From: a virus
IMG/VR virus record: IMGVR_UViG_3300035703_000443
Span: 1 to 21,269 of that record
Reading direction: 5' to 3' (one strand)
Length of the DNA stretch: 21,269 nucleotides
The first letter of the stretch is position 1, and each line of letters opens with the position of its first letter. Below are positions 7,949 through 13,396 of the stretch, one piece after another. The position numbers and the translations under genes are program-made. The notes beneath the pieces were generated by a model. That model saw only the letters and a list, made by a program, of their open reading frames with translations. It was not told where the DNA came from and searched no databases.

Positions 7949-8332
7949 TTATGGTTTCTTCAGAAATCTTGCATAAGGTAGAGATCGAAGATATTCAATC
8001 TCATTATTTTTTATAATATGCAGTGGACCAGCAACTTCTTGCCAGGTATAATTTCTTACAGTTCCCCAATGAAAATTTAATCCACGGAATCCCCATTTCT
8101 GAATATCAATACATGCAATTAGTGGGTGAATATCAAACATGATATTTGGAGTTTTTGCAATGTAGATAAATGTATAATACTTCCCAACATCTGGTATAAA
8201 CTCAGTTTCACGAAATACTTCAAGAATTTCCATCATAATAGAATCTGGATCTGTGAGACCTTTAATTCTTTTCTTAAGTTGATTCACTCTAGGTGAAGAA
8301 GATCTAATATCCTTACCAAAACCTTCTGCCAT
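7949..8332 (-). CDS. Conserved cyanophage protein of unknown function
   Basis: A 127-residue protein beginning MAEGFGKDIRSSSPRVNQLK. A basic, helical start (KKRIKGLTDPDSIMMEILEVF) is followed by an aromatic, beta-rich middle (VGKYYTFIYIAKTPN) and a Trp-rich stretch WGFRGLNFHWGTVRNYTWQE. From memory this pattern occurs in other marine T4-like phages beside genes 4, 48 and 53, with no assigned role. The position suggests a structural or assembly function. There is no signal peptide or membrane segment. Its ATG shares one base with the stop of the homing endonuclease upstream (TAATG), so translation is coupled; before the endonuclease inserted it was probably coupled to gene 4. Confidence 0.8.
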   Translation of the reverse strand: MAEGFGKDIRSSSPRVNQLKKRIKGLTDPDSIMMEILEVFRETEFIPDVGKYYTFIYIAKTPNIMFDIHPLIACIDIQKWGFRGLNFHWGTVRNYTWQEVAGPLHIIKNNEIEYLRSLPYARFLKKP

Positions 8333-8979
8333 TACTTGATACCTTTAATAAATTTTCCACCTTCTTTAAGAATATAATATCTAGAAAGTCCGGTTTGTTT
8401 TATTGCCTCAGTCATAGATTTATATACTTTATTATTATATTCTACTGATTTTGCAGCATATGATTTATCTTTCATAAATTCACTGTGTCTTTTATGCTTT
8501 TCTTTATCAGTTCTATTTCTTTCTGCCATTTTTTTCAAATTTTCAGTATAATAAGATAATGGCCTTGGATTATTTTTTAATTTTTCTTTGTGCGAATTTG
8601 AAATTTTTTGTCTTGTTTCTAAACTAACTGGATTACCTTTTCTACCCTTTAGTGCAGCACTCATTTTTGCTTTAACTTCTGGTCTTTTTGTTGGACTATT
8701 ATCTCCATACATTTTAGGAGGAGCATTACCACCATCAGCGATATTCATCAATATACCAGTTCCATCACATTTTTTACCAAAAATAGCAATCATATAAATT
8801 TCGTGTTTGAATGCTTCTTTTTCAGTAAGATTTTGTTTTAATTTTATTATTCTGCTTCTATCTTTTGGGGGATTGCAATTTTTACCTCTATGGTCATATA
8901 ATCTATTTTCTTTTCCTTTTCCAATATAGTAAGGAATACCCTCGTCATTTAAGTAAGCATATGTATAATAATTGTTCAT
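8332..8979 (-). CDS. GIY-YIG homing endonuclease with NUMOD3 module
   Basis: A 215-residue free-standing homing endonuclease unlike the one behind thyX in its C-terminal half. The nuclease core has YTYAYLNDEGIPYYIGKGKE (5-24), an RLYDHR segment and an acidic KEAFKHEIYMIA block. A NUMOD3-type DNA-binding element follows: GDNSPTKRPEVKAKMSAALK (92-111), then GRKGNPVSLETRQKISNSH. The C-terminus (EYNNKVYKSMTEAIKQTGLS) resembles the IENR1/NUMOD1-like helix-turn-helix. It is inserted between gene 4 and the 127-residue ORF, 23 bases after the gene 4 stop, and reads in the same direction. The one-base overlap with the next gene shows a precise fit into the operon. The family is clear; the cleavage target is not. 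Confidence 0.9.
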   Translation of the reverse strand: MNNYYTYAYLNDEGIPYYIGKGKENRLYDHRGKNCNPPKDRSRIIKLKQNLTEKEAFKHEIYMIAIFGKKCDGTGILMNIADGGNAPPKMYGDNSPTKRPEVKAKMSAALKGRKGNPVSLETRQKISNSHKEKLKNNPRPLSYYTENLKKMAERNRTDKEKHKRHSEFMKDKSYAAKSVEYNNKVYKSMTEAIKQTGLSRYYILKEGGKFIKGIK

Positions 8980-9002: not shown

Positions 9003-9452
9003 TTATTTAGAATAACCAAATAGTTCGTTTTCTGTGATAACCTTGAATTCAATTAATCTATCAGCACAGAACTCCTGAGCTGCTTTCCATTTTGCTTGGT
9101 TGACTGCATAAGTCTTCATTTCATATAACCAAGATTTAGTTTTTCTTTTTGGAACTTTTGGTTCCATTGTCTGTCTCTTTGGTTTCACTTCAATAACGTA
9201 AGTTTTAATTTCACCATTTTGTTCTTTCACCTTGATAATAAAATCAGGAAAGTATCTGTGAACTTTGTTATCAACTGGTGAGCGATATGGAATCCAGAAT
9301 TCTTCACTGCCCCATTCCAAAACATTCTCATTCAGATCGCACCAGTGGCAAAACTTTCTCTCCCAACTACTGCGACATATAATATTGTTTGGATCACCTT
9401 TATATTTTTTTGGAAAGGATGGTTTGTATTTGCTTTTTAAACTTTCTCCCAT
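9003..9452 (-). CDS. 4: Head completion protein gp4
   Basis: gp4 acts at head completion, before tails join. The 149-residue ORF starts MGESLKSKYKPSFPKKYKGD; ATG 9452 is used rather than the longer frame to 9527 because the late promoter lies between them. It has the gp4 block CRSSWERKFCHWCDLNENV, followed by HRYFPDFIIK and YVIEVKPKRQT. Glu31, Asp70 and Glu88-x-Lys90 form a TnsA-like PD-(D/E)XK nuclease pattern, as noted for the T4 gp4 family. T4 gp4 is 150 residues. It is the first gene of a leftward late operon (4, endonuclease, unknown ORF, 48, 53). Confidence 0.9.
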   Translation of the reverse strand: MGESLKSKYKPSFPKKYKGDPNNIICRSSWERKFCHWCDLNENVLEWGSEEFWIPYRSPVDNKVHRYFPDFIIKVKEQNGEIKTYVIEVKPKRQTMEPKVPKRKTKSWLYEMKTYAVNQAKWKAAQEFCADRLIEFKVITENELFGYSK

Positions 9453-9481
9453 ACCTTGTCTACATAATATATAAGCAAAAA

Positions 9482-9489
9482 TATTTATA
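9482..9489 (-). promoter_or_regulatory. Perfect T4-type late promoter for gene 4
   Basis: The minus strand reads TATAAATA exactly. The predicted start is near 9475, giving a leader of about 23 bases before the gene 4 ATG (9452). It directly abuts the divergent + strand gene starting at 9491. Confidence 0.8.
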
Positions 9490-9490
9490 G

Positions 9491-10255
9491 ATGGCCGAGC
9501 CACAACCACAAGTAACTTCAATGTCAAAGATTAAGAGTAAGTTGATGAGACCTGCTCTTACATCAAATTTTTTGTGTGAATTTGCACCACCATCTGCACT
9601 TACGACCAGTGGATTTATAAGAGATAGAGTTGATGCTGGATTTATTGGTGCAAACTATGATAGAGAAAATCAAGAATTGGTCACACTATCTTGTTCTGAA
9701 GCATCTCTTCCTGGTTCTTCTCTAGCAACTCACGAAATTAATAATGATTTTACTGGAGTAACTGAAAGACATGCTTACAGAAGACAGTATGATGATAGAG
9801 CCGACTTCACTTTTTATGTTGATTTAGAATATCGCATCATTGACTTCTTTGAAAACTGGATGTCATATATTGTCGGTGAAAGTGAGATATCTGTACAACA
9901 ACAAAGAAATTATTCTTATAGAGTTAATTTTCCTAACGATTATAAAACGGATAACTTATATATTACTAAATTTGAAAAGGATTATCTAGGAAGACAATTG
10001 ACATATCAGTTTATCAATGCATATCCTATCAGTGTAACTTCCATGCCTGTTTCATATGATGCATCTCAATTATTAAAATGCACCGTTTCATTTACTTATA
10101 GTCGTTATGTAATAACGCGACCCAAAACTTTATATAATAATCTTTTGACGACGCAGATTAATAGAGAGAATGAACTTCGTAATCAAGGATTTAATGTACC
10201 TGAAGGTGGAATAGACCTGGGGGCATTTATTAGAAACAATCCTCCAGTTCAATAA
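9491..10255 (+). CDS. Tail-tube-fold baseplate protein (gp54/gp19-like)
   Basis: A 254-residue protein with a tube-type beta fold: KIKSKLMRPALTSNFLCEF, then LVTLSCSEASLPGSSLATHE, a DFTFYVDLEYRIIDFFENWM stretch and a C-terminal AYPISVTSMPVSYDASQLLK leading into CTVSFTYSRYVI. The PISV-x-x-x-x-x-SYD element is shared with T4 gp54 and tail tube proteins. It lies just before gp26 and the tape-measure genes, like the tube gene V before G and H in lambda. It may be the tube initiator (gp54 role) or a second tube protein; the sequence alone does not decide. No ribosome site is visible before ATG 9491 or the later in-frame ATG at 9521. Confidence 0.7.
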   Translation: MAEPQPQVTSMSKIKSKLMRPALTSNFLCEFAPPSALTTSGFIRDRVDAGFIGANYDRENQELVTLSCSEASLPGSSLATHEINNDFTGVTERHAYRRQYDDRADFTFYVDLEYRIIDFFENWMSYIVGESEISVQQQRNYSYRVNFPNDYKTDNLYITKFEKDYLGRQLTYQFINAYPISVTSMPVSYDASQLLKCTVSFTYSRYVITRPKTLYNNLLTTQINRENELRNQGFNVPEGGIDLGAFIRNNPPVQ

Positions 10256-10288: not shown

Positions 10289-11008
10289 ATGCCTTTACCA
10301 AAGATCGCTACGCCAACATATGAGTTGGAATTACCTTCAACTGGACAAACAATTCAGTACAGACCATTTTTAGTTAAAGAAGAAAAACTTTTAGTATTAG
10401 CACTTGAGAGTGAGAATACAAAAGAGATTACAACTGCAATCAAGAATGTAATTAAATCTTGTATTAGCACAAAAGGAATTAAAGTAGAAACTCTTCCTAC
10501 ATTTGATATTGAATATTTGTTTCTCAATATCAGAGGTAAATCGGTAGGAGAAGAAATTGAGGTCAATATTATTTGTCCAGATGATGGTGAAACTTATGTT
10601 CCTGTGAAAATTAATATTGATGATATTCAAGTACAAAAGCAAGAAGAACACACGAACAAAATTAAAGTCGATGATTTTATTGTGATGGAGATGAAGTATC
10701 CATCTCTTGATCAATTTATCAAGAGTAATTTTGATTTTGGTTCTGACAGTTCTATGGATCAATCATTTGATCTTGTTGCAGCATGTATCGATAAAATTTA
10801 CAATGAAGAGGAAGTTTGGACAGCATCTGATTGCACTAAGAAAGAACTTGTTGATTTTCTTGAGCAGATGAATTCTTCTCAGTTCAAAGAAATTGAGAAG
10901 TTCTTTGAGACGATGCCAAAACTTTCTCATGAAGTAAAAGTTAAAAATCCAAAGACCGAAGTTGAAAGTACTGTGGTGCTGGAGGGTCTCTCAAGTTTTT
11001 TCGCATAG
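10289..11008 (+). CDS. 26: Baseplate hub assembly protein gp26
   Basis: gp26 is needed for assembly of the T4 baseplate hub. This 239-residue ORF starts MPLPKIATPTYELELPSTGQ and shows the cyanophage gp26 blocks QYRPFLVKEEKLLVLALES, FDIEYLFLNIRGKSVGEEIE, MKYPSLDQFI and FFETMPKLSHEV. It ends VLEGLSSFFA. T4 gp26 is 208 residues. By order and character it corresponds to the lambda gpG type of tape-measure chaperone. It overlaps a -1-frame extension through a slippery site in its last codons, so two products are likely: gp26 and a longer fusion. The next genes are tape-measure-like, which fits a chaperone role. Confidence 0.85.
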   Translation: MPLPKIATPTYELELPSTGQTIQYRPFLVKEEKLLVLALESENTKEITTAIKNVIKSCISTKGIKVETLPTFDIEYLFLNIRGKSVGEEIEVNIICPDDGETYVPVKINIDDIQVQKQEEHTNKIKVDDFIVMEMKYPSLDQFIKSNFDFGSDSSMDQSFDLVAACIDKIYNEEEVWTASDCTKKELVDFLEQMNSSQFKEIEKFFETMPKLSHEVKVKNPKTEVESTVVLEGLSSFFA

Positions 11009-11026
11009 CACTGGTCCACATGGACC
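10981..11026 (+). promoter_or_regulatory. Programmed -1 ribosomal frameshift signal
   Basis: Three elements occur in the order known from E. coli dnaX. A Shine-Dalgarno-like GGAGGG is at 10981-10986. A slippery heptamer T-TTT-TTC (10996-11002) is in the correct register, nine bases later. A perfect 5-bp hairpin, GGTCC (11013-11017) with GGACC (11022-11026), lies downstream. The zero frame stops at TAG (11006-11008), between heptamer and hairpin. The -1 frame is open to TGA 11185-11187. Confidence 0.75.
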
Positions 11027-11187
11027 TTGAGAGTTACTTTAAACTTAATTTCTCCTTGATGCAGTATCATAAATATTCATTAACTGAGATTGAAAATATG
11101 ATTCCTTGGGAAAGGGACATTTATGTTGAATTATTAAAAGCGCATTTAGAAGAAGAAAAAACAAAGCAACAGCAAAATGGGACCTGA
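11002..11187 (+). CDS. -1-frame extension of gp26 (lambda T-domain-like)
   Basis: This segment has no good start of its own. Read in the -1 frame from the slippery site it adds 61 residues to the first 238 of gp26, giving a 299-residue fusion. The extension has an aromatic start (DLESYFKLNFSLMQYHKY) and a helical SLTEIENMIPWERDIYVELL. It ends in a charged tail EEEKTKQQQNGT. The L-T-E-I-x-x-M-x-x-W pattern is typical of the T domain of lambda GT and P2 E', which bind the tape measure protein. An internal ATG (11020, 55 residues) exists, but it lies in the hairpin and lacks a ribosome site. T4 places gene 51 here, so it may be a gp51 equivalent. It overlaps the next gene by 11 bases. Confidence 0.75.
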   Translation, partial: RIALVHMDLESYFKLNFSLMQYHKYSLTEIENMIPWERDIYVELLKAHLEEEKTKQQQNGT

Positions 11188-13396
11188 CGATCTGGATGAC
11201 CTACTAGCAAGCATATTGGCGGAGGGTAAAAAAGAATCCGCCCTTGCTTTGTATGAGGGAACCAGAGAGGATGATCTTGTTAGTGAAGATATAGACGAAA
11301 GAATATTAAGGATACTTGGACTTGATGAAGTTTTTGATATTGATTATGGAACTTATTTAACGCTTCTTCGTGAGAAGTTGGTTGAATCTAGAATGGTTGA
11401 TAAAAAGTTATCAACTGAAGAAAGTATGCTTTTGACAGATGAGTTCAAAAGAGTTCGTGGAAATGTTGGTAGATTTAAAATCAAAAGAAAGAGAATAACA
11501 TCTGAAAATATAGGGGTGACGGGCCCTATTCGAGTATCTACTGAAAAGTTTTATCTCACATCTAAGGCAATAATTCCACAACCTCCAGTTGCTGTTGGAG
11601 AATCATCTGAAGATATTAGAAGTATTGAAGGAGCAATCGATAATATATTAAAAAGTTTAACAGATCAAAATAAACTTGCTAAAAAGAAAGCAGACGAAGA
11701 AAGAAAGTTAGACGAACAAAAAAGAAGAATAAAGAGAGAAGCAGAATTAGAAAAACCAATTCAAAAAGCAGTAGCACTTGTTAAAAAAATAATAGCACCT
11801 TTTCAAAGTATTCTGGATAGAATCATGAGATTCATTCAGTTTACCTTACTTGGATATTTTGTTGATAAAGTTTTAAAGTGGTTTGCTGATCCTGCAAATG
11901 AGAGAAAGATTAAAATCCTAGGAAGATTCTTGAAGGATTGGTGGCCATCTTTAGCATTTGCTGCTGGGTTATTCCTAACACCTCTTGGTAAATTTGTTCG
12001 CACTACTCTCACTTTACTGAGGACTTGGGTGCCACAGATTGCAAAATTTATGTTGGCGAATCCATATGTATTTCCTACTGCAGTTGCAACAGTTGGTGCG
12101 GCCGCGAAGATAAAAGAATCCGAAAGGATGAAACCACTTACTCAAAAATCTCAAGAGGAAATAGATAAGACGCTGAAAAGTAAAGAATCTCCTTGGTATC
12201 AAAAACTTGGAGCATCTTTCGCAGGACAAAGTTTGAATGCTCCTGGGGGTCCTGCAAATCCAATTGGACTAACTGCTCCCGGTGGAATGTATAGTGGTGG
12301 AGGTCAAGTTAGAAGAAGATCTTTCTTTGGTGGCGGTGTAGTTGATAAAATTATAAATGTCAATGATATTGCTTTTAATGAAGGTGGTGGAATTGATGAT
12401 GATAGTGGTGTAAGAATTACTGGAGCTGGTCCTGATACTCAGTTAATTGCAGCTGCACCTGGTGAAGTTGTAATGTCTAAAAAAGCAGTAGATAAGTATG
12501 GTGCAAACTTTTTTCTTGGTTTGAATAAAAGAGCGGGTGGAACTAATATTCCAAAAATGGTTAATAATATTCAACTTGCCTCTGGTGGTGGAATAATCAA
12601 TAAAGTAATTAATTCCTTCCAAGGAGGAGGTATTGTACAAAATACCTCTAACTCCTTTAGAGGTAGTAATATGGTTCAAAATACCTCTAACTCCTTTAGA
12701 GGTAGTAATATGGTTCAAAATACCTCTAATTCTTTCCAAGGTGGAGGAATAATTGGCGCTCTTGGTAGAATTCTTCCCGGAACTGGAAGAGTAATGGCAC
12801 CGCAGGGAATGAATCTTGGATATCAAAATAAGTTTTTAGGAATGAATATTGGTGGAGTAAAAAATCTACCACTCAATCAAACATATTCACCTTCAGCAGT
12901 TAAACGATATAATACAAGTCCAACTGCCCCAAGTTCACTAGTCAAATTTGGAACCGGACCTCTTGCAGAAAGACATGTAAGTATTCCAAAATCATCTTCT
13001 AGTGCAATACCACCAAGTAGTATTTCCAGACCACCGATATCAAACTCACCGACTGGTCTTAATTTGAATCTGAAGCAGAATATACAAACCATACAAGGTG
13101 CTGCAAAAAGACAAGAGCAGATGATGCGAGAGCTGGGAGTTAAACCGTCTGGATATGTAAATCTTCGTGGACAACCTATCAATCTTGGTCCACAATCAAG
13201 GTCTACTGCTCCAGGAACTCCTGTCATTTCTAGCAAAACTCAAATGATTGTTCTTCCACCAACAACTTCTGTAGCACAAAAACCAGCAACTCCAACAATA
13301 TCTGGTACACAAATACCAGAATTTAGTATTGTTGCAAACACGGGATATAGATCTATGATTTCTGATACTCTTGGTATCGCAGATCTTGTAGGATAG
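11177..13396 (+). CDS. Tape-measure-like tail protein 1
   Basis: A 739-residue protein following the gp26 chaperone pair, in the position of a tape measure protein (gp29 role). The N-terminus (MGPDDLDDLLASILAEGKKE) is acidic and helical. A charged coiled-coil region is at about 165-195 (KKKADEERKLDEQKRRIKRE). A hydrophobic stretch at about 210-310 begins RFIQFTLLGYFVDK (218-231) and includes FAAGLFLTPL. The second half is Gly/Ser/Asn-rich, with GEVVMSKKAVDKYGANFFLG and a 13-residue tandem repeat. The FTLLGY segment recurs in the next gene, so the two look paralogous. No enzyme motif was seen. It overlaps the frameshift extension by 11 bases. Tape-measure identity is inferred from position, length and composition. 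Confidence 0.7.
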   Translation: MGPDDLDDLLASILAEGKKESALALYEGTREDDLVSEDIDERILRILGLDEVFDIDYGTYLTLLREKLVESRMVDKKLSTEESMLLTDEFKRVRGNVGRFKIKRKRITSENIGVTGPIRVSTEKFYLTSKAIIPQPPVAVGESSEDIRSIEGAIDNILKSLTDQNKLAKKKADEERKLDEQKRRIKREAELEKPIQKAVALVKKIIAPFQSILDRIMRFIQFTLLGYFVDKVLKWFADPANERKIKILGRFLKDWWPSLAFAAGLFLTPLGKFVRTTLTLLRTWVPQIAKFMLANPYVFPTAVATVGAAAKIKESERMKPLTQKSQEEIDKTLKSKESPWYQKLGASFAGQSLNAPGGPANPIGLTAPGGMYSGGGQVRRRSFFGGGVVDKIINVNDIAFNEGGGIDDDSGVRITGAGPDTQLIAAAPGEVVMSKKAVDKYGANFFLGLNKRAGGTNIPKMVNNIQLASGGGIINKVINSFQGGGIVQNTSNSFRGSNMVQNTSNSFRGSNMVQNTSNSFQGGGIIGALGRILPGTGRVMAPQGMNLGYQNKFLGMNIGGVKNLPLNQTYSPSAVKRYNTSPTAPSSLVKFGTGPLAERHVSIPKSSSSAIPPSSISRPPISNSPTGLNLNLKQNIQTIQGAAKRQEQMMRELGVKPSGYVNLRGQPINLGPQSRSTAPGTPVISSKTQMIVLPPTTSVAQKPATPTISGTQIPEFSIVANTGYRSMISDTLGIADLVG
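12638..12754 (+). repeat. 39-base tandem repeat with hairpin units in tape-measure-like gene 1
   Basis: Two near-identical 39-base units (12638-12676, 12677-12715) encode QNTSNSFRGSNMV twice, and a third, diverged copy follows. Each unit carries an inverted repeat, CCTCTAA with TTAGAGG around a 5-base loop, so each can form a hairpin in RNA or single strand. It looks like a recent in-frame expansion. Confidence 0.85.

Follow-up and report, generated by a model that had tools for sequence, protein, structure and literature searches.

Gene 26 in the window, the whole 21,269-nucleotide stretch of viral DNA that was analyzed (IMG/VR record IMGVR_UViG_3300035703_000443), very probably encodes a tail assembly chaperone (TAC) in two forms, the longer of which would arise by a -1 slip of the ribosome at the heptamer T TTT TTC, as judged from sequence comparison and a structure model. 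The small gp51-like open reading frame at its end is best read as a -1-frame continuation of gp26 and not as a gene of its own.

Under the proposed mechanism, most ribosomes would stop at the TAG at 11006 and release TAC-N, a short form of 239 aa that resembles lambda gpG. A minority would slip back by one base at T TTT TTC, where tRNA-Phe could re-pair to UUU in both sites, aided by the internal SD-like GGAGGG and, in the clade of the window, by a downstream hairpin. The slipped ribosomes would read 61 more codons, giving a 299-aa fusion (TAC-NC, gpGT-like) whose helical C-domain would recruit the tape measure, with the N-domain coating it. Slippage and its rate, tape-measure binding and a role in length control are what we infer here.

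The gene 26 junction in the window

The features of the junction and its two flanking genes are as follows.

9491..10255, + strand: tail-tube-like protein (PF23849 Phage_TTP_2, 2e-17; phrog_45 tail tube, 7e-38)
10289..11008, + strand: gp26 homologue in the zero frame, putative TAC-N, short product of 239 aa (PF12322, phrog_150)
10981..10986, + strand: GGAGGG, putative anti-SD-like stimulator, 9 nt 5' of the heptamer
10996..11002, + strand: T TTT TTC, slippery heptamer that reads as X XXY YYZ in the gp26 frame
11002..11187, + strand: -1-frame extension, putative gp51-type C-domain of the TAC-NC fusion (phrog_634, phase and gp51 homology)
11006..11008, + strand: zero-frame stop codon TAG of gp26, from the sequence
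11013..11026, + strand: downstream hairpin GGTCC-ACAT-GGACC, with a 10-nt spacer from the heptamer
11020..11022, + strand: first ATG of the -1 frame, from the sequence; possible independent start without an SD
11177..13396, + strand: next gene, presumed tape-measure position, by synteny

Gene 26 ends in A AGT TTT TTC GCA TAG, and the order of elements at its 3' end is GGAGGG, TCTCTCAAG, TTTTTTC, GCA, TAG. The initial annotation had proposed a frameshift here from a heptamer in the correct register, GGAGGG nine bases upstream, a GGTCC/GGACC hairpin downstream and a 61-codon open -1 frame leading to a 299-residue fusion, and each of these was found in the sequence as claimed. The -1 frame contains no stop codon from 10966 until TGA at 11185-11187. 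Counted from CGC at 11002-11004, the extension comprises 61 codons plus the stop, and a shift at the heptamer gives a product of 238 + 61 = 299 residues. The CDSs of the window contain 35 in-frame slippery-type heptamers, and the sole long -1 frame (63 codons) opens at the gp26 site, the runner-up reaching 24 codons. A chance origin is very unlikely because just one of the 35 heptamers opens such a frame.

No ATG, GTG or TTG was found in the -1 frame of the window 5' of 11020, and the ATG at 11020 is not preceded by an SD, which agrees with the earlier claim that this frame lacks a ribosome site. The arms of the hairpin occupy 11013-11017 (GGTCC) and 11022-11026 (GGACC), and the first ATG, which the initial annotation had placed in the hairpin, is divided between the ACAT loop and the stem.

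Conservation of phase, heptamer and coding constraint

The gp26 and gp51 proteins of the window, together with the gp51 proteins of divergent isolates, served as queries to collect relatives from IMG/VR, and about 20 annotated isolates were also taken into the comparison set. Phase was assigned by profile searches in all forward frames at 343 non-fused loci. In 341 of them, the extension was in the -1 phase and overlapped the 3' part of gp26, with at least 7 nt open 5' of the gp26 stop. After removal of identical junctions, 271 unique junctions were retained, and the in-phase heptamer T TTT TTN was present in 266 (250 TTC, 15 TTT and 1 TTA). The set of 168 clusters on which the codon constraint was measured had been selected for the heptamer, so that its invariance there is by construction and 266/271 is the unbiased figure. 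Conservation in relatives, on which the earlier proposal depended, therefore holds and reaches beyond cyanophages to Vibrio, Aeromonas, Stenotrophomonas and Pseudomonas phages; variants of the heptamer were observed in Agrobacterium and Pseudoalteromonas phages. In groups such as L278 and L311-L314, only 7 nt of open -1 frame precede the gp26 stop, beginning at the heptamer itself, which leaves no other place for a shift. Phenylalanine codons of gp26 are 69% TTT and 31% TTC, so codon preference alone would not maintain TTT TTC.

Transcriptional slippage on the T6 run could also make the -1 product, given that the core of the site is a T-run and that 14 junctions read TTT TTT followed by the T of the stop codon. 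This origin is highly improbable: the T-run is almost invariably followed by C despite the preference for TTT among Phe codons, the register is always X XXY YYZ, an SD-like element lies at ribosomal spacing, and runs of six bases are short for polymerase slippage.

The only clear exception in phase was phage S-SCSM1 (L163, MK867354.2, 2473-2503), in which 11 nt inserted directly behind the gp26 stop interrupt the -1 frame and place the extension in the +1/-2 phase. The heptamer was missing from five of the 271 junctions, namely, those of CBA120, LIMEstone1 and VAP7 (Ackermannviridae), one Klebsiella phage with the same gene order and Vibrio phage D528. The junction reads ATT TTC ATT TAA, without the heptamer, at L166, L179, L181 and L182 (Ackermannviridae CBA120, LIMEstone1 and rabagast, and the Klebsiella phage). 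Extensions of the CBA120 or kuttervirus type have no standard start codon, with TAATT where LIMEstone1 has TAATG. At L090 (approximately 1380-1450), the gp26 frame is broken 5' of an intact heptamer, probably by a sequencing indel.

Ribosomes might instead reach the extension by termination-reinitiation after the gp26 stop, in which case it would be a stand-alone gp51 gene starting at ATG 11020. An ATG near the start of the extension was indeed found in 159 of the 271 junctions, as in the window itself, a separate CDS is annotated in P-SSM2 and others, and TAATG or TGATG overlaps occur in some phages. However, in 87 of the 271 junctions the -1 frame is free of ATG, GTG and TTG up to the conserved YYxxNF motif, and a further 25 have only GTG or TTG. 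The isolates without an ATG in this region include syn9, S-CAM4 and ACG-2014d, and the extensions of S-CAM4, ACG-2014d and CBA120 have no annotated gene. An SD-like 4-mer preceded the ATG of the extension in 15 of 159 cases compared to 116 of 270 for the gp26 start. A separate gene would also leave the conservation of the heptamer unexplained, and the constraint on the -1 frame extends 5' of the ATG. In the 12 columns from the gp26 stop to the ATG at +14, the ratio of amino acid changes to base changes for the -1 frame was 0.411 versus 0.522 after column shuffling (4/300). The other two frames gave ratios of 0.58 to 0.60 over the same columns and contained stop codons in 37/168 and 19/168 lineages. 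The codons between the heptamer and the ATG of the window thus evolve as -1-frame codons, and reinitiation at a stand-alone gene has very little probability.

Comparison across the relatives shows that the site is conserved, that the -1 frame is under coding constraint and that the extension needs no start codon. With the -1 phase, the heptamer and the start-less extensions all recurring in the family, the earlier proposal of a -1 frameshift joining gp26 to the extension is well supported. As to existing annotations, gp51 of syn9 (L177, 2534-2677) begins at an internal codon with loss of conserved residues, and the extension is unannotated in S-CAM4, ACG-2014d, CBA120 and rabagast.

Candidate stimulatory elements

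The initial annotation had likened the site to the three parts of E. coli dnaX. All three are present in the window, and the heptamer and the SD-like element are family-wide, but a strong hairpin is confined to the clade of the window. The anti-SD duplex 5' of the site averaged -6.99 kcal/mol over the 168 clusters, compared to -5.62 kcal/mol under a null of synonymous randomization that preserved the encoded amino acids and phage codon usage, and none of 100 randomizations was as low; the duplex of the window is at -9.8 kcal/mol. The SD-like signal was significant solely against synonymous codon choice. An apparent covariation between GAA and GGG among the SD-like codons was rejected, its effect on duplex energy not being significant when codons were shuffled between sequences (14/100).

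In the clade sharing the ATG at +14 (109 clusters), the minimum free energy of the downstream hairpin had a mean z of -2.63 against synonymous shuffles, with -3.4 for the window, compared to -0.78 elsewhere in the family and -0.08 in a control stretch downstream. The stem covaries in this clade, with G-C, A-T and G-T at positions +8/+19 and C-G, T-A and T-G at +10/+17, to an extent reached in none of 1,000 shuffles, which do not preserve phylogeny. Against dinucleotide shuffles, the hairpin region of the window was unremarkable (z of -1.5). RNAalifold returned no consensus structure on the ungapped junction set because the position of the hairpin varies among lineages, and the hairpin was therefore assessed by synonymous-shuffle tests on each sequence and by pair counts at fixed columns. 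A long-range stem around the heptamer, CTCTCAAG/CTTGAGAG, was considered as well; it is present in the window and pairs partially in a fold, but it was discarded because relatives such as L001 do not have it. The SD-like element and the hairpin, which exceed the synonymous null across the family and, clearly, in the clade of the window alone, respectively, are candidate stimulators of the shift.

The retained ATG at +14 bears on whether the clade of the window also makes a freestanding C-domain, initiated at the hairpin-bound AUG, alongside the frameshift fusion. This possibility overlaps the frameshift explanation and is unlikely. The ATG is retained by 109 of 168 clusters and sits within a hairpin stronger than the synonymous null, but most of these starts are without an SD, the same protein persists in relatives that lack the ATG, and conservation of a methionine alone is no sign of initiation. 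In an elaborated form, which is doubtful to the same degree, this clade would produce gp26, the fusion and a free C-domain from AUG 11020, the hairpin would promote the shift as well as control the start, and a single duplication in the T4 lineage would have put two genes in the place of frameshifting.

The chaperone fold and its counterparts in T4 and other systems

The gp26 homologue matched PF12322 (T4_baseplate, 3.1e-78) and phrog_150 (4e-83), and its AlphaFold2 model was confident (pLDDT 86.7, pTM 0.80). The four best PDB matches of the model were all TACs, namely, 3fgx (Z 8.0), the HK97 TAC 2ob9 (Z 7.8, 84 aligned residues, rmsd 3.9), YqbN 3klu (Z 7.4) and the PLE TAC 5ir0 (Z 4.9), and the next was an unrelated structure at Z 2.5. 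The Z values come from realignment of Foldseek PDB matches, which cover approximately the first 95 residues of gp26; values near 8 are middling and, by the alignment tool's own note, may be coincidental, which is unlikely here because four TACs and nothing else reach that level. The first three structures are treated as tail assembly chaperones (PMC9603447) and 5ir0 is the TAC of PLE1 (PMC12987554). Neither the gp26 nor the gp51 profile found a relevant match among PDB chain sequences. The model thus argues for a TAC fold in the N-domain of gp26, and the chaperone identity proposed earlier is supported, with the correction that the small ORF is a homologue of the gp51 C terminus. This 55-aa ORF (11020-11184) matched phrog_634, the "baseplate hub assembly catalyst" (2e-26). 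It aligned in addition to the 40 C-terminal positions of phrog_150, a profile built partly from long forms.

The gp51 protein of T4-type phages matched PF12322 over residues 1-201 (4e-55), was weakly similar to T4 gp26 by BLAST (1e-5) and was homologous to the cyanophage extension over approximately its last 46 residues (hhalign E value of 4.5e-10). From these matches, T4 gp51 is a full-length gp26 homologue carrying the C-domain of the extension, that is, a natural in-frame long form. T4 (Straboviridae hub assembly chaperones) thus resembles the window in having gp26 as the N-domain and gp51 as the N-domain plus C-domain. Unlike in the window, gp26 and gp51 of T4-type phages are separate genes on opposite strands, and in an unrooted tree of the N-domain frameshift gp26, T4 gp26 and T4 gp51 (T4-type loci L161 and L346-L354) formed three separate groups. 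T4 encodes the short form in gene 26 and the long form in its paralogue, gene 51. The simplest history is a single gene duplication on the branch to T4, after which a short and a long gene took over from frameshifting; we infer this direction, the tree being unrooted. Foldseek and VIA-align detected no TAC match for the T4 gp51 model, perhaps because it was built on seven sequences, and this was not counted against the assignment. T4 gp51 is needed for assembly yet absent from the particle (PMC3004832).

For cyanophage and marine vibriophage, gp51 was described as lacking the first approximately 200 residues, in a text with no mention of a frameshift (PMC3037559, Sullivan et al. 2010). The proteins would be short because gp51 is the -1-frame tail of gp26 and no short separate catalyst, which amends the annotation of a gene that is nearly core in marine cyanophages, a group that ranks with the most abundant phages of the oceans. 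For the T4 hub factors, this would mean a common and testable function, with gp26 as the short and gp51 as the long tail assembly chaperone, and one frameshift gene versus two genes offers a natural comparison of how the short-to-long ratio is set.

Frameshifted TACs are established for lambda-like phages, and the lambda heptamer is G GGA AAG. Like lambda gpG/gpGT and the other siphophage TACs, gene 26 of the window would yield a short and an extended form from a single start through a -1 shift close to its 3' end; it also shares the TAC fold of the N-domain and a locus between the tube gene and, here presumed, the tape-measure gene. It differs from lambda in the heptamer T TTT TTC, approximately 140 additional residues after the TAC core of gp26, an extension of approximately 60 aa and a contractile T4-type tail. 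The TAC of Pseudomonas phage Adele and the Vandenendeviridae likewise has a conserved myophage -1 frameshift at a polyT site (GTTTTT) with the continuation annotated as a separate gene, but belongs to another family with another motif, and the available part of that account reports no SD-like or hairpin element (PMC12846349). In E. coli dnaX, an SD-like element upstream and a hairpin downstream likewise flank a slippery heptamer; the window departs from it in having T TTT TTC in place of A AAA AAG, a 10-nt spacer, a clade-specific hairpin and an unrelated function.

TAC genes were reportedly identified in T4-like phages by Vladimirov, Gautam and Davidson in 2022 (Virology 566:9, doi 10.1016/j.virol.2021.11.003). 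In two later papers, that work is cited for T4-like phages that carry one short and one fused long copy (PRFect, PMC10885494) and credited with polyT slippery signals in the TAC-N genes of T4-like phages (PMC12846349). The earlier statement that no description of such a frameshift in T4-like cyanophages was known therefore stands only in part: as far as these citations go, T4-like TAC genes and polyT signals are already in the literature, but the frameshift is only partly recognized. With the frameshift principle and the T4-like TAC assignment already known, the added value lies in the comparative scale and the corrected annotation.

The order of tube, chaperone, extension and tape measure, also part of the initial annotation, was borne out upstream by the tail-tube-like gene. 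Downstream, the identity of the tape measure is weakly supported in the window, where the 739-aa product of 11177..13396 gave a weak phrog tape-measure match (0.38), and better in Vibrio phage D481, whose syntenic gene matched phrog_4200 (1.1e-6). The presumed tape-measure gene contains a 39-bp tandem repeat at 12631-12729 (2.5 copies, 96% match) that encodes SFRGSNMVQNTSN-type repeats. Elsewhere in the window, homing-endonuclease-like genes were found at 1044-1754 on the + strand, with GIY-YIG and NUMOD1 domains, and at 8332-8979 on the - strand among head and tail structural genes, with a NUMOD3 match only. The gene at 9003-9527 on the - strand, in the gp4 head-completion position, matched a TnsA-like endonuclease N-terminal domain (7e-25).
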